The notes under the pieces are model-generated. The model was given only the letters and a program-made list of their open reading frames with translations. It was not told the DNA's origin and ran no database searches. Positions 16,301 to 53,685 of a stretch of 64,000 nucleotides of DNA are shown piece after piece; position 1 is the first letter of the stretch; each line of letters opens with the position of its first letter. Source of the DNA: Botrytis cinerea B05.10 (lineage: Eukaryota > Ascomycota > Leotiomycetes > Helotiales > Sclerotiniaceae). Made by a program: the position numbers and the translations under genes. Location: contig NC_037325.1 in NCBI RefSeq assembly GCF_000143535.2, positions 1,116,001-1,180,000 on the forward strand, in the 5' to 3' direction.

Positions 16301-17257
16301 ATATTTATTCCCGAAAACCAAGTCATCCCTGCCGCTACTCCCCGCGAAGACGAAGACTCATACCTGACTACTGCCGAGAAAATCGAACAAGACGCTCGCG
16401 CAAATCTCCGCCGCCAATTCAACAAAGTTCACCAATCGTTCTGTTTCCTTGACGATAGATCCGATGCCATTAAACTTCTGCAAGCCGTTGGTGAATTTGC
16501 CCACGAACCCACAGAATCATGGTGCGCGTCTCACTATGTACGCTACAAGACTCTCAAGGAAATCTCGCAACTGCGTCGTCAAATCACAGATCTTTTGAGA
16601 ACCAATATACCAGCATTCGCAACATTGAAGTACGAAGAGAAACTAGCGCCCCCAACTGCTAAACAAGTCAAAGCACTTAAACAGATGGTTGCCGCAGGAT
16701 TTATCGACCATGTCGCCATTCGAGCAGATTTGGCCCCGACACAACCTGAAGCTTACAGGAAACCCAAGAGAGCAATCGACGTTCCTTATCTCACACTCTT
16801 TCCCTCCCATCTTCGTGTTCCCAACAAACACAACGATGAAGACCAAGAACAAGACAAAGCAGTCTATATCCACCCTGCGTCTCCTTTATCCCATCTGTCT
16901 CCAAATGAATGTCCTGAATATATCATCTACTCGTATTTGCAAAAACCGGCTGAGGATGTTAATGCAGATGGATCGAGAAAGAGACAGAAGACTAGAATGC
17001 ATAGCTTGACGGATGTTACCGGAGGACAACTTGCGGGTCTGGCCAAGGGGACAAGTTTGTTGGAGTATGGAAAACCGATCAAGGAGGTAATGGTTAAGGA
17101 TAAGAAGACGGGGAAGGATGCGGGTGCAGAGGAAATGAGAGAGTGTTGGGTGGTGCCTTATTTGAGAGCGGAGGGGTCGGGAGGTTTGGGCTGGCCATTG
17201 CCGGCTAGGAAAGTTGTGCAGAAAAAGGTTAAAGGGAAAGGATGGATTGTTGAATAA
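13331..17257 (+). CDS. ECM16: DEAH-box RNA helicase Dhr1/Ecm16 (DHX37 type)
   Basis: Single exon, 1308 aa. Residues 1-400 are charged: basic at first, then long acidic Ser/Asp/Glu blocks. The helicase core follows: Walker A GATGSGKT at ~488, TQPRRVAA, DEAH at 589-592, SAT at 631, and motif VI QRAGRAGRTGPG at ~860. HA2 and OB-fold (DUF1605) regions follow to the C-terminus. The order, acidic insert in the core (~740-770) and length match Dhr1/DHX37, which releases U3 snoRNA from pre-40S particles in the nucleolus. No intron is needed. A minus-strand open frame at 13801-14505 is only the shadow of the acidic repeats. Confidence 0.93.
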   Translation: MPPKFTPRQRKHKVLARNKVNDTETPVDSNATEILPSSKAAHEEKKKKLKDELAGDNKISGKKAKRLEKYIESKLRKDENRILIEKLSKRNEEGGLYESSKKLGQGSLTRRERLARALKERERGIDIDGDGEELLFEKRTIREMESESSGEDDDEIDQKKEGGLFQGTATTTSSAPIPKTPAQTLQFGAGTGLKRPLEVDDDGKPVIQKRQRRGGVKSRISSKPQPPAAEPAWEGFSSDSEVDSDEEMKSDEDSDNSNTPDETDDKKRAELLKRLTGIFAEGGEGTDSEDSSEEGSSNEDSNEDSDDEDSEESEETSDPEHAQLLKNIMSIFEESKEGALQSALGNDKEENNEEGSSDEDSDEDDSDESSEEEDEDEDEVTSRKQERSSAFKAWATQQVNEAYGYEPSSNIPNATETPRIEGFEPRPLEQDPLPVELQPTTNLSRKAFSVTIERPSSIQDVRLKLPVVAEEQKIMEAIHNNNLVVVYGATGSGKTTQVPQFLYEAGYGTKDSPNPGMIGVTQPRRVAAVSMAKRVGDELADHGKRVAYQIRFEGTVSSETAIKFMTDGVLLREVAQDIALRKYSAIVIDEAHERSVNTDILIGMLSRVVKLREEMAEEDPSIKPLKLIIMSATLRITDFTENKTLFSTPPPVLQAEGRQYPVTTHFARKTHHDYVEEAFRKISKGHRKLPPGGILVFLTGQNEITHLSKKLKEAFKIGSTTTGPQVRISGKDAPMEAEDIDFGETMDTTNDDYVDDDDEVTFNDDEDFDIGEEADTGPSKMHILPLYSLLPTKEQLRVFEPPPDGSRLIVLATNVAETSLTIPGIRYVFDCGRSKERKYDKTTGVQSFEVGWISKASASQRAGRAGRTGPGHCYRFYSSAVYERDFEEFAEPEILRMPIEGVVLQLKSMNLQHVVNFPFPTPPDRQSLASSEKLLTYLSAISPSGQITPTGSTMSIFPLSPRFARILLVGHLHDCLPYTIALVAGLSAADIFIPENQVIPAATPREDEDSYLTTAEKIEQDARANLRRQFNKVHQSFCFLDDRSDAIKLLQAVGEFAHEPTESWCASHYVRYKTLKEISQLRRQITDLLRTNIPAFATLKYEEKLAPPTAKQVKALKQMVAAGFIDHVAIRADLAPTQPEAYRKPKRAIDVPYLTLFPSHLRVPNKHNDEDQEQDKAVYIHPASPLSHLSPNECPEYIIYSYLQKPAEDVNADGSRKRQKTRMHSLTDVTGGQLAGLAKGTSLLEYGKPIKEVMVKDKKTGKDAGAEEMRECWVVPYLRAEGSGGLGWPLPARKVVQKKVKGKGWIVE

Positions 17258-18747: not shown

Positions 18748-19287
18748 ATGCCAAACCAATCATCAGTCAACAGATCCCTCTCCACCATCCGCACCGAGCT
18801 TGAAATCCTCTCTCAAAACGACGTTCTTTCTCTCCCTCAATTCCAGTCTATCATGGCGCAACTACCCGTAAGTATATCACCCGTCAAAACCTGCTCCTAC
18901 CAATTCACCGCGAGCATCACCAATGAAACCAAAATGCAAACAGAATACTCACTATTATCACAGCAACAAAATGGCTCCCAAACACAATATACCGACTACC
19001 GCTACAATCCCACTACCAATTCCAATCCTCAGAAAATGGCGCAAGAAGATCAGGATCTAAATCATCCTGAACATCTTGCTCATCGTAAGGTATTGCGGAT
19101 TTTCATTCAGCTTCCTTCCTCTCTCTCTTCTTTCTGGTCTATATGGAGTGGGCGCTATATAAAATAGTAACAAAATCAACAGAATCATGAATGGGCAAAA
19201 GCAATGGCTTTTAAGTTTGAGATTGCGGCTGTATTGGGAGCAGTATTAGCAGTCGTTTTCTATAGTACTATCATGGATAATCTATAG
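18748..19287 (+). CDS. LSB1/PIN3-like N-terminal domain protein, no SH3
   Basis: The start MPNQSSVNRSLSTIRTELEI matches the N-terminus of fungal Lsb1/Pin3-type SH3 proteins (VNRSL..IRTELE.L...). Those proteins normally continue into an SH3 domain, which is absent here. The final exon (19183-19287) encodes a predicted membrane segment (FEIAAVLGAVLAVVFYSTIM). Simplest model: exons 18748-19089 and 19183-19287, 148 aa. A strong GTAAGT at 18868 with CACAG at 18961-18963 allows a further in-frame 96-nt intron, giving 116 aa and QLPQQNG at the junction, which looks more family-like. Either way the SH3 domain is missing. Function unknown. Confidence 0.6.
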
Positions 19288-19712
19288 ATCATCTGCGTGT
19301 TGGTGGATATTCGCTTAAATTTGAAGCTTTTGACAGATCACTAAATAGCCTGTAGCAATTTTATAACCTCGATTCACCTCCAGATTATAATATTGATGTT
19401 AATATCTATATTAATTATAAATTTGTTTACATGATATCGGTAGATCAATATCATGATAGTAGGTAAGTGTTGGCATTAATCAATCACCCTGGGGTGATAG
19501 CTTATGTAAATATCGCTAATATCTTTTATTAAATTGGGTAGTATAGTAGTATCGTGGTATTCTTTGCTATTGATGTAAGTAGTAGAAAATATGAGAATAG
19601 ATTCTACATACTTCATCTAAGCTAGCGGAACTCGCAGCTAAATGGGCCTAAATATACCGCAGCGACAAGCATTTGAAGCCGAATTTCATCGGTGAAGTGC
19701 AGAAATTGATCA
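19288..19712. other. Intergenic, convergent genes
   Basis: AT-rich, nothing recognised. Confidence 0.5.
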
Positions 19713-20495
19713 TCACTTAGTACCGGGCTTGTCGTAATCTTCCCACTCAGAAACCCAATCGACAAGTTGATTCCAGTTAACGCAAAAATGTTCAGCCTCA
19801 AATCCCGTCACCCCATTGTTTTCTAAGTCTTTGACTTCAACTGTTGTGTCAGGTCTACATATCAAAGCGTTTCTTATTAGTTCGATGCAGTGAGTAATGT
19901 GGAGTGGTGCAAAATGGTCCGAGAGGCCTTTAGGGTCAAAGTCAATCGTCGACGCTCCATCATGGACAGCCACGCTGGCATCGTATAAAGTCCAATATGC
20001 TAGCCTTATCTTATCGAGGCAATGCAGCTGATGAAAGACTGCAAAGTCGGCACGCTCTCGAGAAACTCTTGGGTGACGGAAAAACCCTCCTTGGGCTGGA
20101 AACATTGACTCCCATGCCGCATCTGCTGCTGGACCACTTTCAGCGAATGTTTGGTTGTAAACAAACTTGTGCTCTTGTAAAGGTACTGCGGAATGATTAG
20201 CTTACATCTCAGTCACTCAGACAGATCTGGAAAACATTGGGAGGGACAAGTTACGGTCAATATTTGGCTGACACCCACTGGCAATATCTCGGTATGGCAT
20301 GTAGTACCGCCCAGTGACAAAACTAGCACTAATTCCAAACACAAAGAAGAAGGAGATAAGAATGACTCGAACGTTGAAAAGCGAATAAGTAGAGCCGCAT
20401 AATTTTCGAGTATCAAGCTGATCATTCTCTAGGGAAGGGGGTTGGTAACCCCTTCTTGAGGACAGAAATTGAGATGTGGTTTGAATGTGGCTCAT
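19713..20495 (-). CDS. UstYa-like oxidase (DUF3328) A
   Basis: Two exons, 20495-20255 and 20185-19713, 237 aa; the 69-nt intron uses GTAACT...CCGCAG. A single membrane segment lies at ~42-62 after a short cytosolic tail. The lumenal domain has AADAAWESMFP, the first HxxHC motif HQLHC at 132-136 and the second HITHC at 176-180, followed by IELIRNALICRPDTT. Both motifs are intact, as in active UstYa/UstYb proteins, which act in oxidative cyclisation of ribosomal peptides (ustiloxin, phomopsin, asperipin). With the second DUF3328 gene and the repeat precursor it forms a candidate RiPP cluster. DUF3328 proteins also serve other mycotoxin pathways, so the role is inferred from context. Confidence 0.88.
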
Positions 20496-22675
20496 GGTGC
20501 TAGTCACATGTAATGGAAAGCGACTCAAGATCTTTGAAAACGAAAACACAAAGTAGAACAAAAATAAGTTTTACCCTCTAGAAACTTTACATACAAGTCA
20601 GTATCCATCAAAGCGACCAGAGAAATGTTTTGTTGTTGTAAGAACAATTACAAGAAACTCGGCGATCTGCTTCTCCCGAGTCTCTTTCGCTCCCGCGATA
20701 GCAGATCACAGCATGGACCAGACATGCGCCAGACATCATGCCATGGTGATCAATTTTTCATCGTCTTCTTATCTAAAGGCGTTCCACTTCTTTTCCAAAA
20801 TCAAGTTTGCGTGCATGCCCTCGTAGCTGTTGCGACACAAGTGAATATGCAAACATGAGTGCACTAGCACATTATCGCACAGTCGTATTGCATACAGTTC
20901 CTGTAACTCTAAATCACAAATAGATAAGCATAACATCAAATTATATTAACTCTAAAGATGTCGTAATCACTACTGAGTTGATACCAACAGTAGCTATTCC
21001 GATTGGCTTTGTGTTTAGAGCGACTCCACCTTCCTAGATCCCTATCGGGTGCGTGTTCCGATCGGCTCTACGGCACTCTACGGCACTCTACAATTCTTCC
21101 CCCACAACTTTTCCATCAGTTAAATGGAGGGTAATTTGTTGAAGAAAATGTTCCAAGTTTTAAGATCAGCATTCGGCACTAAGTACTTTGTGATGAAGAT
21201 TTTCCAATACGGTAGCTAGCGGGGGGTGGGTACGGGGTAGTTCCCGTTGATAAGTTCGGTTCATAATTTTGTCCTAGGATGAGGAAATTGACCTATTTCA
21301 TGACTCGAACAGGGGAGACAGGGGAATGCCCACGTTCAACGGCTACCAATCAGGGCCGAGAATCAAAATTCTAAGCAGAATTCCTTGCACCTCTAGCAGG
21401 AGCTTGAGATCTTCCAAAGTGCAGGACGAAGACCATTACTCTCATTGGTATGTGCCTGCTCGAACTCTACTAAAGAAGTACTCAATTTTGATAGCCACCA
21501 GGATGCGTATCTACCTGAGTCAAGCATAACGGATATCTTCAGTCAACAAGGCAGTTGGTATACACGGCATGTTCGAAAAAGGAAGTTGTCTTTCAAAGAT
21601 ATTCAAGGTGTAAGATTATGGAAGTGCTTTTGATTTGAGGAACATTCTCTCTATTTCAATTGAAAGATATGTGACGTACTTTCCACGCTGCTATCTACAC
21701 GCTTTCAAAAGTCATACGGCATAGACCGAAGTTACCACGATTGCTCGCGCTCACCTGAATCGACTACCTAGATACACTATCACGCAACTACAGTACGCCA
21801 CTGCTTTGAATATACTATCCTCAAAGTGGAAGTATGTGAACGCAGTGAATGGCTCCAATTCAATGGCTAATATTGTAATCCTATACGAATGCGAAAGACA
21901 CTAGCTCTTTCACTAGTCCTTGTTTGGAGACCTGCCACTTCTTGTAAATAGCTAACTCTTTAGATAGAATAAAGCTTGACATTTGGACCTACCATCGTAG
22001 GTGCTACGTCATCTGTATCCTTCTCATACAAGCAGGAAGTCTTGTATCCTAGCCTATACCTAAGGATGAGAATAGGATGGAATCCTTCCTTAGCTGATTT
22101 TATCGGACTCTAGAGATACGGTTAGGGCCAGTAGATTTTAGCTGCCAGCCCGATATTGACGACATGTCCTAGCACTGAACCTACCTAAATTGCTACATTT
22201 TGGGAAAAGCAAGCTTGCTCTACCAATGTCTTACAGAATACGTAGCCAAATAAGACACCAGGCCTAATAGCACTGGTAGCCAGTTCTTTTCCGTGACGAG
22301 AATATTTCAGCTGGGCGGGAAACTCACGGGTGTGGTCTGCGTTTCACGGATGATGAAATATGAGGTTTATTCGATCTACTCAAGCTACGGCCTGCTGATA
22401 CAAATTTACATCTATTGTTCTGGTATTGTCTTGGGTATGATAAGTATTGAAATCAGTAGGTGTTCATAATGTTTTTCATGATTCTTGCTAGCTAAAAGGT
22501 TGAAAAGAATAAAAAGTGAGGATACAATAGTTTACACCCCGTATAGCACATCTAGTGCTAATGTTTACACTGCCCCAAATTGGCTACAACTACAAACTTG
22601 TAAATCCCGACACATGAATTCTGCTGAAATAACGAGCCACTTTCCTAGACACATGCCGATTTCCGAATTCCGGTA
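20496..22675. other. Intergenic within the candidate cluster
   Basis: 2.2 kb with no supported gene. It contains the promoter of the UstYa-like gene at its left end. A tandem CTACGGCACT repeat lies near 21068-21090. 21960-22200 has the look of decayed mobile DNA, but no ends were identified. Confidence 0.35.
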
Positions 22676-23803
22676 TCATTCCTGACGCATGGACGGCACC
22701 GCATCAGGATCAAAGGGAGGCTCACCCTCAAATTCCATGATATGTCCATTCTCTGGCTTCAATAGATCGACATCTATCCGATCAGTGCCGTCTTTATCCA
22801 CTTGATTGTCACGAGCATATTCCAAGATAGCATCAAAATTGCGACATTGATGCTGGACATTAAAATTTGGGTTTGGATTGACTTTCCCCTTCAGCCAATT
22901 GTAAGTGACGATACCAGTATCAGCATCGCACATCAGCTTCTGTCGGAGAACATCCGCGCAATGGTCTAGAGAGCAAGAATTTTCGGTTAGCAAAGTAGTA
23001 GAGCTCTTGGTTTCAAATACGACTCACCCAGATGACCGTACCACATTTCTGGGTGGCTGTTCTTGAATTTTGTTTGTTCGGTATAATACTCAGGATAAGC
23101 TGCATTCCATAACGATTGCTTTGACGAGGTTAGAAATCAGCTCTTGAATGGACTTCTGGACTACTTACGACACAATGTATCTGATGAATTGTCTCAAAAA
23201 GTGCTAGTCGACCACCTCCAAGGCTACTTGGTAGTTTGACTGCGTATTTGGAAGCGTTTAGGTGCTGGAAGACGTCCTCCGAGATACTCATCGCTCCCAC
23301 TTGAAAGTTGTCAGTTAATTCCTAAAAAAGAAGAACCTACTTACACATTGTAATCTCGTCCCATAACGCATCAACTTCGGGCGATGGCGGACCCTTATAA
23401 GGAGAGGAGCGATCAAATGTGCCATCAAATCTCACATTTGATTTAGGTGCCGATACGAGATCTCTGAGTTTAGTGTTCTGGACTAGACGGGCCGTTTTTT
23501 AGTATACCATAATAGAAAAATCAATGAGAAGTAAAGGTAGATAGGTATACTCCATTGAATATCGTTTGATTTGGAATCGAATCTTTTTCTGCTCAAAGCC
23601 AGACTAAGTATGATGAATGTGAGAAGAGCTCCCAAGAAAAAAGATATGATCAAATAAGCAGCATTACATCCAAGGTAAGAGTGATGAAAGTTTTTAGCGC
23701 CTTTTTCTGGCCCGTTGATCTCTTCATGAAGAAGACTTTCTTCGACATCTTTTGGGTTCCAGGCGGGCTCGTCTTCAGACTGAGTCGAACGTCTTTCTGA
23801 CAT
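22676..23803 (-). CDS. UstYb-like oxidase (DUF3328) B
   Basis: Five exons: 23803-23551, 23482-23345, 23299-23169, 23118-23028, 22965-22676; 300 aa, in phase. It has a cytosolic N-terminus, a membrane segment at ~47-70, the family signature YKGPPSPEVDALWDEI, then SLGGGRLALFETIHQIHCV with HQIHC at 169-173, and the second motif HLDHC at 203-207 followed by ADVLRQKLMCDADTG. The C-terminal extension after the second motif is about 90 residues, longer than in gene A. It clearly differs in sequence from gene A, so the two are distinct subfamily members, as ustYa/ustYb are. Inferred role: tyrosine-linked cyclisation of the peptide cores encoded at 25887-26498. Confidence 0.9.
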
Positions 23804-24967
23804 GGTGGGACCAAGAAGAATTCTAACAGTGGGAATGTTTGATCGATGAATCTCGTGTTAGAGAGCATAGAAAATATGAACGCAATAAATAAGCTTTCGA
23901 ACTAGAAACTCAGCAGCGTGGTAATTGATCAAGCAAAAACCTGAAATTAGTAGATTGCCTACAAGTCTGTAGCTTGATCCGACTCATACGCAGGTAGTAT
24001 GTCGTCAACGTGAAGAGATAAGTAGTAGCATTCTATCTCAATTCGGTATTGATTGCCGTCATTCCGTATTGTTATATTGATTGGAAATTATGCAAGATGC
24101 TCTCTTAACGGTTGACCTCAATGTCTCAAACATGCACTCCTGGTTTAACTATTTGATCGCAAAGGCGGTAACCCTGAATACTCGAACTCTTGTGTAGAAC
24201 GATCAATCAGCTACCATTCAGATTTCGTATATTTGTTAGTTTTGGGCCAGGGGCTTGTAGTTTCCCCATGAAGTATTATTTAAACTGCGGGCCCTAGGAT
24301 GCAGATAATCCACTTCACGGGTTACCGGCTAGAGGCTCTACCCGCCCTGCAACTTATTCACCGATTGGATGTAAATTCTCCACGAATTATCTACAAACCA
24401 TTTGTGGATTATTTACAATCCCCATTTTCAATTAAATTTGAAACTATTTCTAGATTCTTTTAGGATCTAAAGATGATTTAAGTGGGGATTTGAATAGATT
24501 ATCTGTACACAATCTATGGACTTGCAGATCGATAATGATTTGCAAATCTACAAATAATCTATTGATAATCCATGCGTTAACCGTTTTAAATTTTGAAAGA
24601 TTCGCTTCGCAGCGGATAATTCGCGGATTAACTATCAAAGCCGTTTAACCGCCTCGCAGGTACCCTTTGCGCAACCGAAGATCTGCGGTAGTTTTCTTGT
24701 GAAAAAAGGCTAGGGCTACTGCTATCTCCCTCGTGTACCGTTAAATTCTTGCCGCTCGATGCTAACCTCATGCACCTGCCAATCCTGTCTTGGAAGATCT
24801 CGAACTATCCATTCGGACTAATCCCCGCGATTGTTGTTGAAGAACACCAGAGGCCGATGTATCTCGTTATCATCAATGCTGCCGAGAAACTAAACAAAAT
24901 ATGTGTACTACACAAGACTGCTTTGAGGCACATTTGCATAATTCTTACTGAATAACGTCATGTCAAC

Positions 24968-25110
24968 GCTAGCGAGATGCTGGTTCTCCACAATATGGCC
25001 GGACAGTATGTCGTTTGATGGCAACATGCTGCCTCTTCACAATGGCTAGGGCAGTGAACGATGATATGCAATCGGTGGCAACATGTTGATCCATAATGGT
25101 CGGTTCTAGT
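24968..25110. repeat. Degenerate ~50-bp direct repeats
   Basis: Three loosely similar units, each with (C)ATG(C/T)TG followed ~15 bp later by ACAATGG/CATAATGG-type words; GGCAACATG(C/T)TG occurs twice (25020, 25077). Confidence 0.4.
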
Positions 25111-25349
25111 GAATGACCATGGTATGTGTATCAGGAATGCCTGCATCGATATGACAAGTTTATCATGTCCAATATCGGTCTACATACCTCAATGTCGATC
25201 AAGTTGTGCCGTTCTCTACCCCAAAGTTGTCTTTCTGCTACGCGGCAATAACCCGACTGTTCATGTTATCTGCATTTTTCAATCGGCCATGCAGAGAGGA
25301 ATCTTTTCTCTTGGTGCTATGATTAAATTATTGCATATTTTCTGCATAG

Positions 25350-25556
25350 TGTGAGAAAATATTGATTGCAATGACACATCCAGACAGTTTGCAATGATGG
25401 AAATGGAACAAGGAATCCATCGAGTGTGAAATGATTTATCCCTAGTTCATTGTCGTCATTGTTGTGTATCATCATGTATGATGTGGGAATATATTGATTG
25501 GAATGATACATCCAGAGAATTCGCAATGATAGGCGATGGAACAAGGAATCATGCCG
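25350..25556. repeat. ~75-bp direct duplication upstream of the precursor gene
   Basis: Copy 1 at 25350-25426 and copy 2 at 25482-25556 share ATATTGATTG, ATGA(C/T)ACATCCAGA, GCAATGAT and GGAACAAGGAATC in the same order, ~132 bp apart. Confidence 0.7.
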
Positions 25557-25764
25557 CGGAGTTCCTTGCGTTTTAGTATCTCATGGCAGACAATGGGCAC
25601 AAAATGGTCTGATCGACTCTATTTGGAATCTAATGAGAAGTTCACAACTCCATGGGGAAGGTAGAATTATCTGATCGGCCGAGATGCGTTGGTGATGCAC
25701 TAATTGCAAAGCATGAGCTTACACAGAGCAATTTGTTCACAGTGAACACGCCAAAATTCAAAAG

Positions 25765-25770
25765 TATAAA
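25765..25770 (+). promoter_or_regulatory. Candidate TATA box of the precursor gene
   Basis: TATAAA lies 117 bp before the precursor ATG, a plausible distance for a fungal promoter. No other support. Confidence 0.35.
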
Positions 25771-25886
25771 GCAATGGCATTGCCTTTGCCAAAGAGAAGC
25801 AGAGTCCTTTGCAACATCACAGAAACTCAGTTATTACGAAGCTTTTATAACTACACAATCAACTATAACACCCCAAATACAACAAA

Positions 25887-26498
25887 ATGAAGACTGGCAC
25901 GTTTTTCTTTTCGCTTTCCGTGCTTAGCACTTTGACCGCAGCTCTGCCTGCCCCCAAAGCAGGTAAGTTTAAATGTAGTAATGTATAGATACAAGACTAA
26001 CAGAGATTAGGTCCTGCCATCGAAGATAGTAACACCAAGAGATTTGTTCCCACTATCATTCAATACAAGGACTATACAGAGGGCGCATCCAACGACAAGT
26101 CCAAGAGATTTGTTCCTAATATAATTCAATACAAGGATTATACCGAAGATGTATCCGACGACAAGGCGAAGAGATTTGTCCCCACCATTATTCCATACAA
26201 GGACTATGCTGAGGACGCATCTGACGACAATACCAAGAGATTTGTTCCTACTATCATTCAATACAAGGACTATACTGAGGATGCATCCGACGACAAGGCG
26301 AAGAGATTTGTCCCCACCATTATTCCATACAAGGACTATGCTGAGGACGCATCTGACGACAATACCAAGAGATTTGTTCCTACCATCATTCAATACAAGG
26401 ACTATACCGAAGATGAATCCGACAAGTCCAAGAGATTTGTCCCCACCATCATTCCATACAAGGACTACGCTGAAGATGCATCCGACGAGAAGGCTTAG
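25887..26498 (+). CDS. Secreted Kex2-repeat RiPP precursor (dikaritin-like)
   Basis: Exons 25887-25962 and 26011-26498 (intron GTAAGT...ATTAG), 187 aa. A signal peptide (MKTGTFFFSLSVLSTLTAAL) precedes a short leader ending in NTKR. Seven repeats follow, each opening with FVPTII(Q/P)YKDY (FVPNII in unit 2), then an acidic Asp/Glu/Ser spacer, then Lys-Arg; the last ends at the stop. This is the layout of fungal dikaritin precursors: secretion signal, repeated cores, Kex2 sites. Each core has two tyrosines (YKDY) and an N-terminal Phe, suitable for the Tyr-linked rings made by UstYa proteins. Two UstY-like genes lie within 7 kb and two transporters downstream. The cyclic structure is inferred. 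Alternative: a Kex2-processed structural or pheromone-like repeat protein without modification. Confidence 0.88.
26043..26498 (+). repeat. Seven tandem ~66-bp core repeats
   Basis: Units start at 26043, 26109, 26175, 26241, 26307, 26373 and 26436. Core variants run Q,Q,P,Q,P,Q,P at the residue before YKDY. Units 3 and 5 are identical over 66 nt, so the array grew partly by 132-bp two-unit duplications. Unit 6 lacks one codon in its spacer. Confidence 0.93.
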
Positions 26499-27815
26499 AG
26501 AGCTTTCTTTTTACTGTCATTTGACACAAGGTCAATACTGATGATAAAGAGACTTGTAAAGCTTAGCTTTGGGGTGATGAGAGTAGCAGTGAAAAGTTTT
26601 AGATCTGTAGTTGGGAGGCAGTAAATTCTTTTTTGAGACTCGTCTCACATAGTCGTAAGAGCAGGTTTTGGAAGCTTTCCCTGCTCTCGTTCTACTGCCT
26701 GAATTTGGGTACGACTTCTAGTAAGGTTTAGGATATATCAGGGTGTATGAACTTGGTTTCCCTCACATCGTACAGCCCTTAGTCAGCGTTTTGATAGCGA
26801 TTGAGAATGAAAATTATGATAATTGCTGTGCTTCGATCCTATTTGTGCACCACCTATAGGCAAATTGACTACTGGTGTATTAGTCAATTGTTTGATGAGA
26901 AACCAGATTTTTAATTGTGTTAATGGCTGATGAGAACAAACAGTATTCGGTTCGTGTTGTGCATTCTAAGAGTCTGTATACTTGCGGATATCAAATACCA
27001 TCAGAATTGCTATACGATTTTTAGCAAAACACAGCAGATCTAAGAATATTACATACATCGCAGTTTCAATTAGAGAAAGCAGTGATACCTAAAAATGATA
27101 AATTCCTACCGACTGACAAACTAAAACAAGAACAGGAATGAATCGCCGTACAATAAGAGTCCAGAGTAAGCCATCACTACTAAGGATCCTATTAGAAAGT
27201 CTACATATCAATGTTATTGAATAGTGTGTATATATGTCTGTACCGACGTTCATGTAAGATGTTAGGAAAGCTTAGGTTACGATGACTGTCACGTGTTTAG
27301 GTGAAATCTCATCACGCTTATTTTTAGACTAGCTTAAATTAAGCGACAATTGATCGTAAAACAAACAAAGAGATCTCTCAAGAATCATTTTTCCTCTAGC
27401 TTTTTATTCTAATAATTTGACGTCTATCGATATGCTCTGGTAGGTAATCGTGATAAACCTATCCAGTATGTATTCAGTATAGCATCCCTCTGCCATTCTA
27501 CGGCAATCGGAAGCTTATCATACAATCTTATGCCGCAAGATTTCAAGACTCGGACCCTGGTCTGGAATACAAAGCTACTTTACCTAGATAGGCAGCTCTC
27601 TTGCGTATTGACCCACGACCTCTTGTTAATCGATAACCTTTGACTCCTTGATTGGCCATCCTGTAACTATTATTCCCGTACATATCCGGTCACTTCCATG
27701 GTACGTACATGTTAAATTCTTATCACATTACTCGATCAATCAATAGGTTCTTAAATCAGGTACCCTAATTATCATCATCTTTCAGAATAGACACAGCGCA
27801 ACGGAAAAGATAATC
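26499..27815. other. Intergenic, precursor to ABC transporter
   Basis: No gene recognised. It should hold the precursor 3' UTR and ABC promoter; CACGTG at 27290-27295. Confidence 0.45.
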
Positions 27816-30800
27816 ATGAATCAATCAAGCGTTTGCAAAGATGATGCTTTTGGTCCTATTGTTCACGGATGCCGGGAAGACTTTGATTTTACACTTCTAT
27901 TTGAACAGAGCTTCTTTTCCATACTGCCTTCTATAATCTTTATATTAATTTCATCACGAAAGATCTACTCCCTATGGATACAGCCTAGGAGAGTGTCAGA
28001 TACTAGTGCTCAATTTTTTAAGTTGGTGAGAATAATTATCTGCATTGCGAAAATTCAACAAACACTTACAATTTGTAGCTTTTCATTATTTTATATGGCC
28101 TACTTCAGATTGTTCTTCTTGTTCTGTATTGTATTCGCAACACCAAAGATACACGTACTAGCATTCCTTCACTAGTGCTATACAACATAGTGGTAGTATT
28201 TCTCTGTGTGTTGTCATATCAGGAGCACATTAAATCAATTCGCCCATCGAGTATATTGAATGTGTATTTGCTATGTACACTGGCTTTTGATGCTGTTCAA
28301 ATCAGGACTATTTGGTTGATTGATAATGATACAGCTATCGCGGGAGTTTTCACTGCATCGTTGGCTCTGAAGTTATGTATTTTCTTACTAGAAGCAGGGG
28401 AAAAACATCAGTTTTTGTATCATGATGACAGAAATCATGGCCCGGAAGAAAAGAGCGGCATTTTCAACAGAGCTGTATTTTGGTGGTTAAACGACCTTCT
28501 GATCCAAGGACGAAAGAATATTTTAGCACTCGAAGATCTTTATCCATTGAATGAGGACCTTTCAACTAGAGATTTATTTCCTAAGTTCCAAACTGCCTGG
28601 GAAAAAGGTATGTTAAATCACCTTTCGTTCTCACATCAGTGTGTTTGTAATCTAATTTTCGCAGCAGGTGCTAAGACCGGTAGCTATCGCGCTCTTTATG
28701 CAACGTTCAAAGCCCTCCTTGGACCAATACTTGTTACAATGATCCCGCGAGTCTGTCTTATTGGCTTCAACTTTTGCCAGCCACTTTTAATACATCGATT
28801 TACTACTTACCTACAACAAGCTGTCACCGAGAAGACTACAAACCAAGGTTATGGTCTTGTTGGAGCATACGGTAATAGTTTCTTCTCTTTTATGAAATAA
28901 GCTGACAGCTTCGTCAAGGTATTGTTTATCTAGGAATAACGGTAGGATCTTATCGCACTCGAATGAGTTTGACGCTTACTAGTCCGTAGCTCTCTACTGC
29001 CGTCTATTATCGTCTGACATACCGGTCATTGATCATGGTAAGAGGCGTCTTGGTGCCGGCAATATATCAAAAAACAACTCAGATGGGCATTGGAGACTTT
29101 GACAATGCTGCAGCGGTGACTTTAATGAGTGCGGACACCGAACGTATTATATACGCATTAAGGCAGATGCATGAAGTATGGGCCAACATTATAGAAGTTG
29201 GATTAGCAACTTGGCTCTTATACACACAGGTCGGCTTCGCCTGCTTTGCTCCTTTGGTCATTGCTGCAGGTATGCTTGTCTTCAGCTTTAACACTAGCCT
29301 CACTGACGGTTTGATATAGCTTGTGGTACTGCTTCAATCTGGCTTAGTTCCAAAGCAAATGTTCAACAGCGCGAGTGGATGGCTGTTATACAAAAACGAG
29401 TGGGTTAGTCAATCTTTTATCTTGATAAGATACAAAATAGCAGCTTACATACAATCAGCTACAACAGCGGCCACTTTTTCGGCAATAAAAGGAGTCAAGA
29501 TGTTGGGATTGACGCAAAAGCTTTTCGAAACAATTCACGCCCTAAGACTCACGGAACTCCAATCAGCGAAAGCGTTTCGACAAATAGAAGTTGTTACAGC
29601 TTTCTTCGGTGATTATGGCTATCTACGATTCATTTTTTTAAAGATAACTAACAGAAACTACAGCCTTTCTACCTGAAATGATATCTCCAGTCGTCACTTT
29701 TGCTATATTTATAAATATAGCGAATCATAATGGCGAAGCGTTCGCCTCGTCGGTAGTTTATACATCTATCTCAACACTTTTGCTTGAGACACAGCCATTG
29801 ACACAGCTCTTTCAAGTCATCCCACAACTTGCAGCTGCTGTTGGTTCCTTCGGTCGTATATCTAATTTTTTGGACAGCCAGTCTTTGGTAGACAAGCGCG
29901 AAGAATTCGACTTCAATGTCATAGCAAGAAGTGAGGCTTCTTTGGCAAGCACCGACGATATTAAACTAAAAGATCTGAAACATTCTCGAGAAATAAAATC
30001 ATCTGATTTTTTGAATCTTCCTATCATGCCACTAGTCAACAAAATCGGCATCAAAATCCAAGGAGGTGCGTTTGGCTGGATAGAGAATCGCCACACCCTT
30101 CACCATATAGACCTTGAATTCCCAAAATCACAGCTTACTATGGTGATTGGACCAGTGGCATCTGGAAAGTCAACTCTGTGCAATGCGATCTTGGGAGAGA
30201 TTCCATTTTCCGAAGGCATAATGCAACTCTCATCTTCTCAAATAGCACTCTGTGACCAAACTCCGTTCTTGACTAATGCGACGGTACGAGAAAATATAGT
30301 TGGATCATCGGTGTTTGATGATTTGTGGTACAATACTGTTATTGAGGCTGTTTCACTGCGCCAGGATCTCAAGAGCTTGCCATTCGGAGACCAAACATTG
30401 GCCGGTGCGAATGGTTTGGGATTGAGTGGTGGCCAGAAACAAAGAGTATCAATTGCAAGGGCAGTTTATTCAAGAAATAGTATCGCACTCTTTGACGATG
30501 TTTTCAATGGCCTTGACGCAACCACCAAACAACGCGTCTTTAACAACATCTTCGGAGCTAGAGGCCTGCTACGTCAGGGGCAAGTCACTGTCATACTATT
30601 TACAAACGATGTCGATCTCATACAATTTGCTGACCATGTTGTTGCTCTTGGAACTACTGGAACTGTTATCGAGCAAGGTTGTCCTAATTTGCTTCTTAGT
30701 ACTCAAGGTTATACTCAGCGTTTAGTAGCATCCAACTTGAAGGTTATAGAGAACATTTCGGAAGGGAGTGCAGAAGCTGCTAGCGCTCCAAGTGCCACCA

Positions 30801-32826
30801 CTGAATCGAACGAGCAGGCGATCACTGTCCCAGATATTGCCGCAGAAGGGAATAACAATACCGATCTTTCAGTGTATTGGTATTATTTTACGTCTATTGG
30901 GCTCTTCAATATGATCCCCTACCTATTTCTGGCGGCGTCATTTGGCTTTTTCTACAGCTTTCCACTTGTCTGGCTAAGCTGGTGGTCTGAAGCAAACAAG
31001 AAAAATACAATGTATCTGACGGTATATAGTATCTTCCAGTTGCTTGGTCTACTCTCAATCACCCTCCTCGCGCAACATGGACTAAACAGAATGGCCAAGA
31101 AGTCAGGCAAGAACTTACACCTAAGGCTTCTTAAGACAGCAATGTTTGCGCCTTTAAATTTCTTTCACACTACTGATTCTGGATCTATTGCCAACAGATT
31201 CTCACAAGACATTTTGCTGATTGATACAGAACTTCCCAATGCGCTAATGAACATAGCTGCCTTGATATTCATGATGTTAGGACAGGCAATAATTATTGCT
31301 ATTGCATCACCATACCTAGCTATCTCTTATCCCTTTTTGATTGGGATTCTTTACTTCATCCAGAAGTTTTACCTTAGAACTTCTCGCCAACTTCGTATTC
31401 TGGAATTAGAAGCAAAGTCGCCATTATAGTAAGTCCTTCCCAATCAGCGTCTCATATTATGCGTTGATTTCCCACTCAGTACTCCAAGAAACACCCAAAC
31501 ACTAATGTATCAAATTATAGCACACATTTCCTCGAAACCTTACGTGGGCTCCGGACAATAAGAGCTTTTAACTGGGCCGCAACAAACCAAGAGCTCAATT
31601 CAAAACTTCTTGATACATCTCAACGGCCGATATACCTTCTTTTCATGGTTCAGCAATGGTTGGCAGTCGTTTTAAACCTGGTGACTACAGCCATAGTAAT
31701 CATTTTGGTTGGTGTCGCTACTGCCACCCGATCTCAACACAGTTATATTGGCCTTGCTCTCGTAAATCTCATGTCCTTCAATAATATTCTAAAGAGTATT
31801 GTTATACTCTGGACCACACTGGAAACCTCGATAGGTAGTGTCTCGAGGATCAAAACATTCAGCGAAACCACCAAGTCAGAGACTGAGGCCTCGTCTCAAG
31901 ACATGATAGGTCCAAGTGAGATTTGGCCACAGCATGGTGTTGTTGAGTTCAAAGATGCCTGGGCCACGTACAAGTCAGTTAAGCTTCTTCCTTTGTAATA
32001 GCAGCAAATGATGAAAGTCATATCAAACTAATTTATAGCTAGTAGTGAAAATCGCAATCCCGTGTTGAAACACGTAGATCTATTGATCAAACCAGGGGAA
32101 AAAATCGGAATCTGTGGAAAAAGTGGCAGGTGTGTAAATGAAATCCGAATCCATGCTAGTCTCACAAAAGAATAGTGGCAAAAGCTCCTTGATTCTCACT
32201 TTATTTCGAATGCTCGACCTTTCACAAGGCGGCATCTTTATTGACAATATCGATATCACGCGACTTCCCCGAGAACAAATTCGCTCATGTCTTAACGCTA
32301 TACCACAAGAGCCCTTTTTCTTGAAAGGTACACTGAGAGATAATCTTGACCCGCATGGGGTATCAGAAGATGCTTCTCTGATAAAAGCGTTGGAAATGGT
32401 ATCGTTGAAGTCTATCATACCGAGCACTAACAATCTAGATTGTGAAATGGACGCCGAGGTTCTAAGTCACGGTCAAAAACAACTTTTCTGCCTCGCTCGT
32501 GCGATAGTTCGCCCTGCCAAAATTCTGATCATGGACGAAGCTACAAGCAAGTAAGTACATGTATCAGTGATTTGCTCTTGAAACTGGCACTAACGATGTG
32601 AAGTGTGGACCAAGAGACCGATGCTTTGATGCAAGGCATCATTAGAGATGTATTTGGGGGTTGCACAATCATAGCCGTTGCGCATCGTCTAAATACCATC
32701 GTAGACTTCGACCGGATTGCGTTGTTCGATAATGGAGAGCTTATGGAGTGCGATAGTCCGGCAAATCTGCTTGCACGACCTTCTTTGTTCAAGAAGTTGT
32801 ATGAGGACCAGCAGCTCAATTATTGA
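27816..32826 (+). CDS. ABCC (MRP-type) full ABC transporter
   Basis: Twelve exons join in phase to 1464 aa: 27816-28025, 28079-28607, 28665-28871, 28919-28941, 28990-29269, 29320-29403, 29459-29608, 29655-31428, 31521-31973, 32043-32129, 32176-32550, 32604-32826. The order is TMD0-TMD1-NBD1-TMD2-NBD2, usual for fungal ABCC exporters. NBD1: Walker A GPVASGKST at ~660, LSGGQ at 751-755, but FDD in place of the catalytic Asp-Glu and Asn for the H-loop His (FTNDV), so this site looks catalytically weak. NBD2: GKSGSGKSS at ~1262, LSHGQ, MDEATSN, AVAHRLNT, all canonical. It lies next to the RiPP precursor and could export its product or confer self-protection. Intact despite several in-frame intron stops. 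Confidence 0.9.
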
Positions 32827-33647
32827 GTGTGTTCCAGGAGGATATTGTCACGAACGGGCGGTTCAATCCTGCATGGGCAGTTTAAATGGACACGTGACTA
32901 AGGGACCTGATTATAGGAAAACCCTCGGTAGGAATTGGATCATGTATATAAGTTACAAGGATATGTGGTTAGCCGTCTAGCAATGAGACTCGGAACACCA
33001 TATACAGTCACGTGACTGGATCTTCTTGTATCCTCGGAGCTTAGGATATAGAAGGTTCATATAAGTAGATAGAACCCCAAGTCAATTTTCTTTTTTCTTT
33101 TTCTTTTAAAAACCATGGAAAATTTATAGAAAAATTATTTAGGGGTTAAAAAAGCCATTACTTAGATTATGCGATATACACTTAATACTAGCACTCTGCA
33201 CCAAAACGTTGAATGTTGTTACTATTTGTCTCAAAAAGACTCCATGCGTCGCCGGCCTGATAGATCCGAATAATAACGCGGTTCCTAACCGGACCGCAAA
33301 TGAGGCTTATCTCGCCCGGGGTCTGTTTACTCTTTGATAGGTCGTAAATTGCTACTCCGCCGCTCTGTTTGCGAATCTAAGAATTGCGGCCATAGCTTAT
33401 CGAACCCAGTCCAGTCCTATGGAATCCCAGACAAGCATGTCGGAATATAGAGTAGGATTATAAGTGCTTATCAACACGTATCCACAACTCGGAGTAAGGT
33501 AAGAACCGGTAATTGTTGTTTATCTACACCGAACTCCGATATCCAGACACCAGAATCGAGAGTACATATATATCTTGTGTGGCCCGTTTCTGTGTCATCG
33601 TGGCTTAAGTTTGGGGCATTTATCCCCCCATACTTTTTCCGATCGAT
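32827..33647. other. Intergenic, ABC to MFS transporter
   Basis: Promoter region of the MFS gene. Two CACGTG palindromes lie at 32891-32896 and 33009-33014, the second inside GTCACGTGAC. No gene seen. Confidence 0.45.
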
Positions 33648-35544
33648 ATGTCTCCCGAACCGACTCATTCTGAAGAGACGACCCCTTTATTACCCAAATC
33701 GCCTACTCAATCTATTAATTCTACTACCGATCACGATGCGTTACTTACGCGTCAAACTATAGCTATTCGCGTTTCTGTCATTTGCATTCTCTCTGTGTTA
33801 CTTGTTGAAATAGGCGATTTTATGCTCCAAGCACCGCTGGCTCGGACTCTTGAAGACATAATATGTCGAGATTATTATTCGTCTGCTCCCCTTTCTGGAT
33901 TCAGTGATGCGCCCCGACTTTCAATTCCAGAAAGTCATTGCAAGAATGATGTTATCCAAGGGAAATTGGCGATGTTGAGAGGGTGGGATGGAACTCTTGC
34001 TTGTATTCCAGGACTGATTTTGTCGGTACCGTTTGGAATATTGGCGGATAAAATTGGCAGGAAGACAGTGTTGTTTATGAGTTTGATAGGTCTATCTCTG
34101 GGGTTGATTTGGGTTCAGGTTATCTGTGAGTTTCTGAATTTGCTAGAATTAAGATGGAGATGGGATCAAGCTGTGGTGGTGGAAGTGATAGGCTGGTTAG
34201 GTCCTACGATACTAACTGCAATCCATGATGGCATAGGCTATTTTGACACATTCTTTGATGTTAGATGGATTTGGTCGGCAAATCTTTTGGCCTTGATTGG
34301 AGGCGGCTCCGCAGTCACAAAAACCATGTACTATACTATTATCGCCGATGTAGTAGCCGAAGAACAAAGGTGCGTGTGATCCAGTGACATCTTAATCTCA
34401 CAAAATTTATGCTAATTAAAGGCATGCAGAGCTACAGTTTTCTTTCAAATTGTGTCAGCTTCTCTGATAGCCACTTTAGCTGGTGTACCATTGGCTTGGT
34501 GGCTTATAAAAGTCTCAAGCCTACGGGCTCCTATGATGGCAGCTGTTTTATTCGTATTGTTAGGAGCCCTACTTGTACTTCTTCTTCCGGAGACGTTGCA
34601 CCTCAGGGAACACTTGCGTATTTCTTCACCAGATACTGATCAAGCACAAGAAGAGGTAATTGAATATGAAGGTAGCTCCACCGAGGACGAAGGAGCCTTG
34701 ACATTTTCGCGAAAGAACTGGTCGATGCTTCTTGAAAAGTTTGAGGAATCTCGTTTTGTATTCACGAATCCAAAACTACTTGCACTTTCTGCTACATTCT
34801 TGGTCCAGTCCTTGCATGGAATGATGAATCAGTTTCTTCTTCAGCTTGCCTCGAAAAGACTTGGCTGGTCACTTGCTGATGTATGCGCTGCCTGCTCCTT
34901 CTATTCTCATATACATACTGACTTGATAAAATAGGCAAGTTTTCTCATTCCTCTAGCTTCCATCACAAACTTTGTTCAATTGGTATTCGTTCTCCCTGCA
35001 ATTTACGGTATCCTGTCGAGATTCCATTTGCAAGCTGCTGTGAAGGATCTGACGGTTAGTCGAGGCTCTGCTTTGCTTATGGCATTGGGATCCCTCGGGC
35101 TTGCAGTATCCCCCGCTCGAGGTCTATTCGTCATTTGTAAGTCGTCACTACTTCAGTACTTCTAGACTACCCTCGAAACCTCAATGATCATACTGCCGAA
35201 TATCATGACTAACGAGAGTAGCAACGATCATATTTTCTCTTGGAATGGGTCTACACCCAGCTATTCGATCTCTTCTTACTGACTTGGTGGACCCAACACA
35301 AGTCAGTCGATTGTACGGTGTTCTTGCCGTCATGGAGACGATTGGCGGCATGGTTAGTAGTCCGTTGGTAGCAGGAGCTTTCAGCTCAGGTTTGAAAAAG
35401 GGTGGATTATGGAGCGGAGGAGGATTTCTGGTTGCTGCAGTTGCATATGCCGCCGCTGGACTTCTAACTTTGTCGGTCAGTGTAAAGAAGGATGAGAGCA
35501 TCACTCACGACGATGTGAATCAGGTAATCGATGAGGAGCGTTGA
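33648..35544 (+). CDS. MFS transporter (drug/H+ antiporter-like)
   Basis: Five exons: 33648-34125, 34237-34369, 34430-34880, 34935-35136, 35222-35544; 528 aa, in phase. After a hydrophilic N-terminus (EETTPLLPKS), TM1 reads VSVICILSVLLVEIGDFML. The MFS signature between TM2 and TM3 is GILADKIGRKTVLF. The central loop (EVIEYEGSSTEDEG) separates two six-helix halves; TM-rich sequence continues to LLTLSVSVKK near the end. The long loop between TM1 and TM2 with two Cys is common in this fungal subfamily. Closest in role are MFS pumps found in secondary metabolite clusters (e.g. ustT, aprT), but substrate cannot be read here. It marks the likely right edge of the cluster. Confidence 0.88.
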
Positions 35545-36226
35545 TGCAGGAATCCCTTTCGTGGAGTATGGGGGAATTCGTGATATGATCTTTATGGTAC
35601 GTAATAGAGGCATCATTCGTATATTAAAGGCCTAGAAAGCGTTGGATTGAATTAGGATTTGGGAGTGATATTTTTGTAATACCAAGAAGCACATGTATAC
35701 ATGGAGGTTTGATAGTTGGACAATGCATATGTAATCTCTTGCATACAATAAATGCGTTCGAGAGTTCGATAGATCTCGGCTCAAGCCAAAAGCATGAGCG
35801 ATTGAAACAAGTCAACTGATTCCCCAGCGAGGGCTAATTTTACTGGAGACGAGACGAATTAACCCCTCGCCGAGATTTGAATCCAACTTCAGCTACAGAA
35901 GCTCCACTCACCATCCTGATTTTTATTTGACCACGGAACATTCGCACAGTGCTTGAACAATTCGAAACTCGAGAAGAATTAACAAAAAAGAAAAGTAATG
36001 TCCTCAAGGCGGTCTCGTCGTCTTCATTGAGGTTTCAAGTCAAAGCGGGCCCCCTTGTGATTGGTCATCACGAAGTCCAAACATCTTTCTTAAAACACAC
36101 CTCGCACAGTCTCTCCCTGAGCCACCAAGATCAAAGCACAACTTCAGACTCATTCAAAATGTCGACCCTCGAGATGGTTTCCCTTCATTTTCATTATCGA
36201 ATATCGCCTTACAAATTGCAAGCAAA
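35545..36226. other. Intergenic with uORF
   Basis: Nothing coding except a short upstream frame (36159-36269) that overlaps the next gene's start in a different frame. Confidence 0.45.
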
Positions 36227-36269
36227 ATGCAGCTTCCAAATGGTGTCAATCGCAAATATGCCATCTTAG
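36159..36269 (+). promoter_or_regulatory. Overlapping upstream ORF
   Basis: ATG at 36159 opens a 36-codon frame that ends 43 nt past the main ATG (36227) in another frame. If it is within the mRNA it would reduce initiation at the main start. The transcript start is not known. Confidence 0.35.
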
Positions 36270-37597
36270 CAGGCTTCGCTCTAGGATTGGCCTGGCTTTG
36301 GTTTGCGTTTGACCGTCCTCAAGTTATACCTACACATATCATCTGGAATGCCAACTCGGGCGGCCCGCAAACAAACATACCTGCTTCCACCTTAGACCAA
36401 AAGGATGTATTCGATTTCCCGCACGTCAATTCCGAGGTTATGAGAGCAGTTTGTGCGACACAAACGTGGAACTCGAGCGTCATATTTACATGCGATAGCA
36501 ATCAAGGAGGAGTTGGACATGTGCGAAACTCTATACTTAATTGCGTGCGATACGCTATTGGTGCAGGTGGTAGCTTGGTTATGCCAAATATCAAGCTGAG
36601 GGAGGATATTCAGGAATTAAACATGATGCCAAGTGAGGAAGGGGAGAAATCTCACATGGGCAAACGGCATGGGCTTGGCTGGAAGGGCCTGGATTACATG
36701 TTTGATGCGGATCATTTCAAAAAATCTTTGAAGATGTCATGTCCCGAATTGAATGTTATCGACCATATGGAACAAACTGTTAATGAGAGAAGACGCGGAC
36801 TTCTGCCCGAGAGCTTATTTATCAATCGACCAACAAGTGGATTGGAACATCCAGAGGAATGGCAGGAAAAGTTACATGATTGGATCGAGAAATGGATGTC
36901 ACCAACACCACAATCGATACCAATAGTTGTGGACCTGGAACAATCAAATCTCCAATACCCAACTCATGCCGATGGTCATGTCTTCGCTCATGAGTTTGGA
37001 CAAATAATGAAATTCCGACCAGATGTTCGTCGCCTCGCAACCTCGACTCTACGCGAAATTTCAAACTGGTACGATGTACCACTTAATGTCAGCTCCGCAA
37101 TTGTTACCCCTTCATTCTTAGGCGTACATTTGAAGACTGAGCCGGAGGGGGCTGAGAAGCGACATGTTGCTGCTGCTCCATTTATGCACTACCACGGTCA
37201 AGCCGAAGCATACATTTCACTGGCTAAGTCGATGAAAACGCCACTCATATACGCTGCCTCTGGTGATATTGATTCTACTCACAAATTGGCAGTGGAGGCT
37301 AAAACTCATGGCATTGATGTCACCCACAAAGAGGATCTCCTGAAGAATCACGAGCGAGAAGAGCTATCTCATTTGAGATGGGATCAGAGAGCTTTAATTG
37401 ATTACCTTGTAGTCTTACGGGGAGAATATTTCGCCGGTGTGGGCCATTCAATGTTCTCATGGAATGTAATGTTGAAGAGACATGAGTCCGCACTGTTGAA
37501 GCAAAAGTTGCACGACGAAACTTATGCTGATGATCTGAGTAGTCTCTATGGTGTTAGAGAGAGTTATTTGGACTCGGCAAAGTGTATGTGGGCTTAA
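36227..37597 (+). CDS. O-fucosyltransferase-like type II membrane protein
   Basis: Single exon, 456 aa. A membrane anchor at ~11-28 follows a short basic tail, giving a type II Golgi topology. The lumenal part has GGVGHVRNSILNCVRYAIGA (94-113), like the nucleotide-sugar-binding GGxGNxR motif of fungal O-FucT-like proteins, then FLGVHLKTEPEGAE and a late DQRALIDYLVVLRGEYFAGV...SMFSWN block that corresponds to the conserved C-terminal acceptor/donor region. In this copy the usual Asn of GN.R is His. Such genes are multicopy in Helotiales; substrates are unknown. Whether it belongs to the neighbouring RiPP cluster is open; I lean to no. Confidence 0.72.
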   Translation: MQLPNGVNRKYAILAGFALGLAWLWFAFDRPQVIPTHIIWNANSGGPQTNIPASTLDQKDVFDFPHVNSEVMRAVCATQTWNSSVIFTCDSNQGGVGHVRNSILNCVRYAIGAGGSLVMPNIKLREDIQELNMMPSEEGEKSHMGKRHGLGWKGLDYMFDADHFKKSLKMSCPELNVIDHMEQTVNERRRGLLPESLFINRPTSGLEHPEEWQEKLHDWIEKWMSPTPQSIPIVVDLEQSNLQYPTHADGHVFAHEFGQIMKFRPDVRRLATSTLREISNWYDVPLNVSSAIVTPSFLGVHLKTEPEGAEKRHVAAAPFMHYHGQAEAYISLAKSMKTPLIYAASGDIDSTHKLAVEAKTHGIDVTHKEDLLKNHEREELSHLRWDQRALIDYLVVLRGEYFAGVGHSMFSWNVMLKRHESALLKQKLHDETYADDLSSLYGVRESYLDSAKCMWA

Positions 37598-53422: not shown

Positions 53423-53564
53423 CTCATACACCACCCGAGGACAACAAATGAAAGGAAACAACGAACTGAGTCAAAGGTACACATCAGGAAAAGTACAACA
53501 CACCAATTGACATGCATCCAATGTCGAATTGCTAGCTGCGTTGGGTTCCCACGTAGCCACACTA

Positions 53565-53685
53565 TGATGTGGTATGGTTGTGGTTGATATGGTTGGTATG
53601 GCTTGGTATGGTTGGTATGGTTTGGAGGGTATGGTATGTTATGGTTTGGAGGGTATGGTATGGTATGGTATGGTATTAATTAATA
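53565..53685. repeat. TGGTATGG minisatellite
   Basis: Irregular repeats of (G)GTATGG and TTGGTATGG, including two TATGGTTTGGAGGG units, ending in a run of GGTAT pentamers. Confidence 0.85.

Follow-up and report, generated by a model that had tools for sequence, protein, structure and literature searches.

Does a compact group of five genes in the genome of the grey mould fungus Botrytis cinerea direct the synthesis of a modified peptide, and which peptide would that be? The group occupies positions 19713-35544 of the window, i.e., the whole 64,000-nucleotide stretch of DNA that was analyzed (C16:1116001-1180000 of the 42.63-Mb, 18-contig genome); coordinates below are window positions unless a contig is named. 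A preliminary description, made from the letters alone, had proposed a cluster for a ribosomally synthesized and post-translationally modified peptide (RiPP) of the dikaritin type, which is defined by a precursor together with UstYa homologues (PMC10512285). The current analysis found every feature of that proposal that can be tested in sequence: a signal-like N terminus, near-identical tandem repeats separated by Lys-Arg, a UstYa neighbor, and two HxxHC motifs. Relatives of the core, of UstYA, and of UstYB in other fungi lend the proposal independent support. We consider it probable that the locus forms a dikaritin-type pathway that releases and oxidatively cross-links a peptide with the core FVPxIIxYKDY.

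Gene content of the locus

Five genes were recognized in the segment from gene models and Pfam matches; its ends are the stop codon of UstYA (19713) and that of the MFS transporter gene (35544).

19713..20495 (-), UstYA, UstYa/DUF3328 family, 237 aa; exons 20495-20255 and 20185-19713; motifs HQLHC (132) and HITHC (176)
22676..23803 (-), UstYB, UstYa/DUF3328 family, 300 aa; exons 23803-23551, 23482-23345, 23299-23169, 23118-23028, and 22965-22676; motifs HQIHC (169) and HLDHC (203)
25887..26498 (+), repeat precursor, 187 aa; exons 25887-25962 and 26011-26498; signal-like N terminus, then seven Lys-Arg-flanked repeats
27816..32826 (+), ABCC-type full ABC transporter with TMD0, 1463 aa; 12 exons; intact in the gene model
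33648..35544 (+), MFS transporter, 528 aa; 5 exons; intact in the gene model; Pfam MFS_1 match with an E value of 5.9e-25

The ABCC protein contains two ABC_tran stretches in addition to the TMD0_ABC and ABC_membrane domains. A suspected break in its frame near 28870 was dropped, as an ordinary intron (28872-28918) restores the continuous reading. The gene models and Pfam matches thus bear out the five genes of the preliminary description at their positions, including both transporters, which are continuous and carry the expected domains. That these five genes make up one cluster with these borders is inferred from gene content.

The repeat precursor

The precursor gene has a single 48-bp intron. 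Its product starts with a hydrophobic segment (residues 4-22, mean hydropathy 1.4) that is signal peptide-like by hydropathy and continues with seven repeats of 20-22 residues each, every one of which opens with a core:

26043..26075 (+), core 1, FVPTIIQYKDY
26109..26141 (+), core 2, FVPNIIQYKDY
26175..26207 (+), core 3, FVPTIIPYKDY
26241..26273 (+), core 4, FVPTIIQYKDY
26307..26339 (+), core 5, FVPTIIPYKDY
26373..26405 (+), core 6, FVPTIIQYKDY
26436..26468 (+), core 7, FVPTIIPYKDY

FVPTIIQYKDY and FVPTIIPYKDY are each present three times and FVPNIIQYKDY once, giving the consensus FVP[T/N]II[Q/P]YKDY. The earlier formula, FVPTII(Q/P)YKDY, fits six of the cores and misses the second one; the accompanying claim of a secreted-type, seven-repeat Lys-Arg precursor stands, as the 187-residue product is intact. 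It contains exactly seven Lys-Arg pairs, each immediately N-terminal to a core, and no other dibasic pairs. The array yields the two top tandem-repeat scores in the window (575 for a 66-bp unit in 7.0 copies and 701 for a 132-bp unit), the next-best repeat scoring 115.

Nucleotide differences among the seven cores, summed over pairs, comprise 62 synonymous and 18 nonsynonymous ones (proportions pS 0.45 and pN 0.03), counts that are not independent, as repeats inside one gene exchange sequence. Without core positions 4 and 7, the same sum is 50 synonymous differences and no amino acid-changing ones. The tails of the repeats are more variable, with 29 synonymous and 32 nonsynonymous differences (pS 0.43, pN 0.12) in the five of seven tails that are of equal length. 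Silent change without residue change is the pattern predicted by selection on the core, and it points to strong purifying selection.

The matches of the precursor to Pfam families PT-TG (25 bits against a cutoff of 23.5), GlutR_dimer, and DUF7589 (both below their cutoffs) were rejected as composition artifacts, because no stretch passes singly and each spans a short acidic stretch of the repeat. There was no pheromone family among these matches, and a genome search found no second copy of the precursor.

Relatives in other fungi

The preliminary description had suggested searching databases with the precursor. Such a search against 5.77 billion proteins, in which 3077 candidates were scored and which relies on shared 5-residue words and similar lengths, returned only two relatives, P0001 and P0002, the latter from Usnea florida. 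Both contain the core FVPSIIPYKDY, P0001 in four complete units and P0002 in three complete units and a partial one (YKDY without the FVPSII half). They also keep the N-terminal LSVLSTL and PAPK, their N termini resembling that of the Botrytis precursor. Nine of the 11 core positions (F1, V2, P3, I5, I6, Y8, K9, D10, and Y11) are identical in all 14 complete units, seven from Botrytis and seven from the relatives; the selection of these units used a pattern with those nine positions fixed, and a count made without it shows that only the partial unit of P0002 had been passed over. The search did not bring up the Botrytis cinerea precursor itself, so its gene is probably unannotated in the protein database. 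P0001 carries a precomputed PF27167 assignment, which had no match in the Pfam copy searched.

Ten relatives of UstYA were found, including those from Botrytis deweyae, Sclerotinia sclerotiorum, Usnea florida, Thelotrema lepadinum, and Lecanora helva; we take the last three to be lichen-forming fungi. Because Usnea florida encodes a near-identical repeat and a related UstYA, the product is likely to be conserved, judging by these sequences, rather than a local oddity. The protein database also contained 56 relatives of UstYB. A quick tree of 57 rows places the window protein in a group of 16 (SH-aLRT 98), together with eight Botrytis/Sclerotinia-type rows (including P0010) and seven others, among them P0013 and P0047; three of these seven fill less than half of the tree columns.

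Several of these proteins come from assemblies with the same longest contig: P0001, P0065 (UstYA, 66%), and P0013 (UstYB, 61%) share a value of 27,886; P0002 and P0061 (UstYA, 59%), both from Usnea florida, share 757,751; and P0063 (UstYA) and P0047 (UstYB) share 12,413. The relatives of UstYA also differ at their C termini, where P0061, P0063, P0065, and P0066, as well as P0062 (shorter), from Usnea and Thelotrema among others, carry SGLPSKGS repeats; the Botrytis and Sclerotinia proteins are without them. The S. sclerotiorum relative, sscle_08g065960, probably represents a locus other than the published RiPP candidate of that fungus, which sits on chromosome 3 (PMC6941272).

The UstYa-family proteins

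Both UstYA and UstYB match PF11807 far above the Pfam cutoff of 25 bits, with 79.9 bits (E value of 3.3e-22) and 168.2 bits (E value of 3.1e-49), respectively, and each has a strongly hydrophobic segment near the N terminus and two HxxHC motifs, in agreement with the earlier reading of two UstYa/UstYb-like genes with intact motifs. In UstYA, these two motifs are invariant across all 11 aligned rows. UstYB is 99% identical to protein P0003 from B. cinerea T4 and identical to B. cinerea P0005 over 278 aligned columns. In the UstYB structural model, built on P0003 (pLDDT 68), the motifs fall into helices 166-181 and 197-216, a block with pLDDT values of 86-93 (71 beyond residue 210); this placement of the helices is consistent with one shared metal site. 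A sequence search of the PDB gave no significant relative of UstYB (one match, E value of 0.52).

The two genes are located one and two genes away from the precursor gene. In the Umemura survey, the UstYa genes of repeat precursors were on average 3.09 genes distant, with a peak at the next position, and repeats with Tyr accompanied UstYa neighbors (65.6% versus 38.2%; PMC7329392). Genome-wide, there are at least 44 UstYa-family matches at the exon level, which merge into 29 to 32 places, the window's two included; the best-scoring other exons, located elsewhere, are 44% (UstYA) and 54% (UstYB) identical. With 30 places in 42.63 Mb, the chance of finding at least two in a given 16 kb is ∼6e-5, a value that ignores any tendency of such genes to pair.

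The UstYB proteins of B. cinerea fall into two groups, P0003/P0005 and P0006/P0009, with several shared differences, which possibly reflect two haplotypes or cryptic species. P0006, from another strain, has RQLHC at the first motif and is missing some of the subsequent residues; this may be a gene model error or indicate a strain with an impaired UstYB.

A proposed pathway and its alternatives

In the proposed pathway, the signal sequence would bring the precursor into the secretory pathway, where kexin would cut after each Lys-Arg and release pieces of ∼20 residues starting with Phe; the genome search located one kexin P domain, on contig C5. The UstYA/UstYB pair, anchored by the N-terminal hydrophobic segments, would act through the HxxHC motifs and connect the Tyr8 phenol, the Tyr11 phenol, or both to side-chain carbons of neighboring residues, closing one or two rings with the loss of 2H or 4H. 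By analogy with asperipin-2a, the link is likely to involve Tyr8 and Tyr11. The calculated [M+H]+ values are 1386.730 for linear FVPTIIQYKDY (1384.715 for -2H and 1382.699 for -4H), 1355.725 for linear FVPTIIPYKDY (1353.709 and 1351.693), and 1341.709 for linear FVPSIIPYKDY, the core of the relatives (1339.693 and 1337.678). The acidic tail that follows the core (TEDASDDKA) could be trimmed by a general protease, proposed here because no peptidase was recognized in the cluster. Export of the product, or protection of the producer, would fall to the ABCC and MFS pumps. These events, from secretion and cutting through cross-linking and trimming to export, are all predictions, and so is the co-expression of the five genes.

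The UstY pair might instead, or in addition, desaturate or hydroxylate the core. UstYa homologues of the phomopsin pathway also desaturate residues (PMC10512285), others hydroxylate, chlorinate, or transacylate (PMC12048977), and Val2, Ile5, and Ile6 of the core offer possible sites. Tyr8 and Tyr11, however, do not vary across the 14 complete units, as would be predicted were the phenols important, and asperipin-2a, the product of the nearest cluster type, bears Tyr-ether rings (PMC6514808). Such chemistry partly overlaps with the proposed cross-linking, so that the two assessments are not exclusive; we regard it as rather unlikely. Another alternative is linear secreted peptides with a signal, effector, or surface-active role, the UstY proteins modifying something else or nothing. 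Some repeat peptides, such as the yeast alpha-factor, are indeed linear signals, ∼78% of repeat precursors lack a UstYa neighbor (PMC7329392), and UstYa proteins are also found in polyketide and nonribosomal peptide synthetase (NRPS) clusters (PMC12048977). Against this stand the absence of a polyketide synthase or NRPS among the 16 window proteins and open reading frames scanned with Pfam, the joint presence in other fungi of the core with UstYA and UstYB, as judged by equal longest-contig sizes, and the two UstYa neighbors found here, when 98.6% of pheromone-type precursors have none (PMC7329392). Linear peptides thus appear improbable. That the cluster is a decayed remnant without a product is far less probable still: the altered P0006 could be taken as a sign of decay in another strain, but it may be a gene model error, all five window genes are continuous in their models, and the core appears to be under strong purifying selection.

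A number of observations weigh against the dikaritin-type reading or parts of it. The original dikaritin set (Ding et al., via PMC6514808 and PMC6941272) further comprised tyrosinase, S41 peptidase, and zinc-finger regulator genes. Of the 23 tyrosinase (PF00264) matches in the genome, none falls within C16:1116001-1180000; the two S41 peptidase (PF03572) matches are on contigs C7 and C10, outside the window; and no Zn2Cys6 regulator was seen in the window among the 137 PF00172 matches listed, with 150 of 206 candidates scored. The roles of UstYa proteins extend to non-RiPP pathways (PMC12048977). The structural model of UstYA, built on P0059, is poor (pLDDT 47) and unusable, and the fold search of the PDB with UstYB gave no significant match (best E value of 1.4). 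Nor does promoter sequence support co-regulation: three 7-mers are common to all five promoters versus 1.0 ± 1.3 in random stretches, no 8-mer is found in at least four of the five (1.1 at random), and one 9-mer in at least three (6.3 at random). These counts are not clearly above those of random stretches, and a shared promoter motif was rejected.

Other such points come from the relatives. The residues before their seven complete cores are K-A-R (six times) or E-A-R (once), never K-R, because of which the simple kexin model does not transfer to P0001 and P0002. Beyond the pattern used to pick the units, E13 is present in 14 and D14 in 13 of the 14 complete units, about as conserved as the core, so that the true core may extend past Tyr11. 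Precursor and UstY genes are probably clustered in the relatives too, a conclusion drawn from the equal longest-contig sizes alone. The seven other rows in the UstYB group need not come from lichens, and the protein database search returned no UstYB from Usnea. It also returned no precursor from other Botrytis or Sclerotinia species, though it did return their UstYA and UstYB; missing annotation is the likely explanation.

A broader proposal builds on the dikaritin-type reading: FVPxIIxYKDY could be an old, conserved cyclic peptide of the Sclerotiniaceae and of lichen formers, cross-linked by dedicated UstYA and UstYB enzymes and released by lineage-specific proteases (at Lys-Arg in Botrytis, at Ala-Arg in lichens), with a general role in life on or alongside photosynthetic partners rather than that of a lineage-specific toxin. 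We offer it tentatively, as possible yet not the likelier outcome.

Flanking genes and other repeat loci

Outside the five genes, the following were noted:

13319-17257, DEAD/DEAH-type helicase gene, flank on the UstYA side
about 18749-19290, small gene without a Pfam match, between the helicase gene and UstYA
35999-37597 (open frame), O-fucosyltransferase-like gene, flank beyond the MFS transporter gene

Farther along the window, there are a 1473-residue open frame at 42758-47179, whose weak NPHP3_N match is just below the cutoff (23.1 versus 24.8 bits), and a degenerate tandem repeat of TGGTA-type units at 53563-53676. The sequence TCTACGGCA is found twice upstream of UstYA, as a short tandem (21067-21091), once upstream of the ABCC gene (27497), and nowhere else in the window.

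Around the other UstYa places of this genome (G000), Lys-Arg-type repeat frames were detected in 3 of 20 stretches (L024, L025, and L030), and other open-frame repeats in two further ones (L026 and L036). Four of these arrays are as follows:

C7:398500-408400 (L024), array at about C7:406553-406840, ∼eight ELSYVNSKREAE-type units, 3 kb from a UstYa-family match
C15:675500-685400 (-) (L025), array at about C15:682015-682505, FYAVQ(K/R)(K/R)DAxPEEA-type units, 1.4 kb from a UstYa-family match
C16:139600-149500 (-) (L030), array at about C16:142350-142785, RGFFNN(G/N)(D/N)-type units, 1.5 kb from a UstYa-family match
C16:734500-744400 (L026), array at about C16:742856-743356, open-frame HHTEAQIAAK(K/E) repeat, ∼2 kb from a UstYa-family match

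L024 is another candidate repeat-peptide cluster by its sequence, and the L026 repeat is reminiscent of the di-histidine repeat types (PMC7329392).

Novelty and significance

A repeat precursor with UstYa genes is a known kind of locus: a UstYa neighbor lies beside 22% of 7878 repeat precursors (PMC7329392), and the present locus is one of several in this genome, where at least three further repeat arrays lie close to UstYa genes. The new elements are the core FVPxIIxYKDY and the fact that a lichen-forming fungus has it too, behind an altered cleavage site. The preliminary description knew of no product with this core, and the strings FVPTII, FVPSII, and FVPNII are likewise in no paper of the literature searched; most subscription journals and the survey supplements lie outside it, and a listing there is possible. 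A wider search gave, among the matches listed, only YKDY in unrelated texts. No literature joining UstYa, dikaritin, and Botrytis was found, and no match named the locus or the guessed gene numbers Bcin16g029xx. A 2022 review counted just five reported dikaritins (PMC10512285), and in a term search the word RiPP was absent from the main text of a 2023 review of B. cinerea secondary metabolism (PMC9920419).

Being common, nearly letter for letter, to the grey mould and a lichen fungus, the core makes a target of unusual promise, with defined masses and only two candidate enzymes, and its conservation speaks for a real function. The finding is also relevant to the precursor missing from the lichen UstY clusters (PMC12048977): a search for Lys-Arg-spaced repeats would likely miss those of Usnea florida, because Ala-Arg precedes them. 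If the peptide is indeed old and conserved, it would supply the repeated dikaritin-type precursor that is missing in lichens.

Comparison with known systems

Like the Kex2-processed repeat proteins (KEPs), the locus encodes a secreted-type repeat precursor that would be cut at Lys-Arg, a type that has a DUF3328 neighbor in 22% of cases (PMC7329392, PMC6339444). It differs from precursors of alpha-factor-type pheromones in having two UstYa neighbors and no pheromone family match. The epichloecyclins, 8- to 9-residue cyclic peptides with a link through an internal Tyr, also derive from a repeat precursor (gigA) with Lys-Arg sites encoded along with a DUF3328 gene; theirs, however, is a four-gene cluster that includes a kexin gene of its own (kexB) and a single DUF3328 gene (PMC6514808, PMC9233826, PMC7317419). 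The lichen RiPP clans R1 and R2 of Lecanoromycetes resemble the locus in their UstY-type genes with two HxxHC motifs, two such genes being present in R1. No repeated core was found in these clans (PMC12048977), whereas Usnea florida has one here, with A-R before the core.

Ustiloxin B and phomopsin share with the Botrytis locus a multicore precursor flanked by Lys-Arg and, in ustiloxin, a UstYa/UstYb pair (PMC6514808), but the Botrytis core is unlike YAIG, and the Pfam scan of 16 proteins and open reading frames found no methyltransferase or P450. Because the tyrosinase, the S41 peptidase, and the Zn2Cys6 regulator were not found in the window, the locus is outside the ustiloxin/phomopsin branch in the narrow sense, and the small asperipin-2a type is closer. 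The asperipin-2a cluster of Aspergillus flavus (aprA, aprY, aprT, and aprR) is likewise very small, with a repeat precursor, a UstYa-family oxidase, and a transporter, has no tyrosinase among its four listed genes, and specifies an aromatic core with several Tyr residues (PMC6514808). It differs in the core itself (FYYTGY) and in having one UstY gene and an isoflavone reductase-like gene, as opposed to FVPxIIxYKDY, two UstY genes, two transporters, and no recognized reductase; no reductase domain was found among the 16 window proteins and open reading frames of the Pfam scan. A single UstY protein has been proposed to form both Tyr-ether rings of asperipin-2a (PMC6514808).

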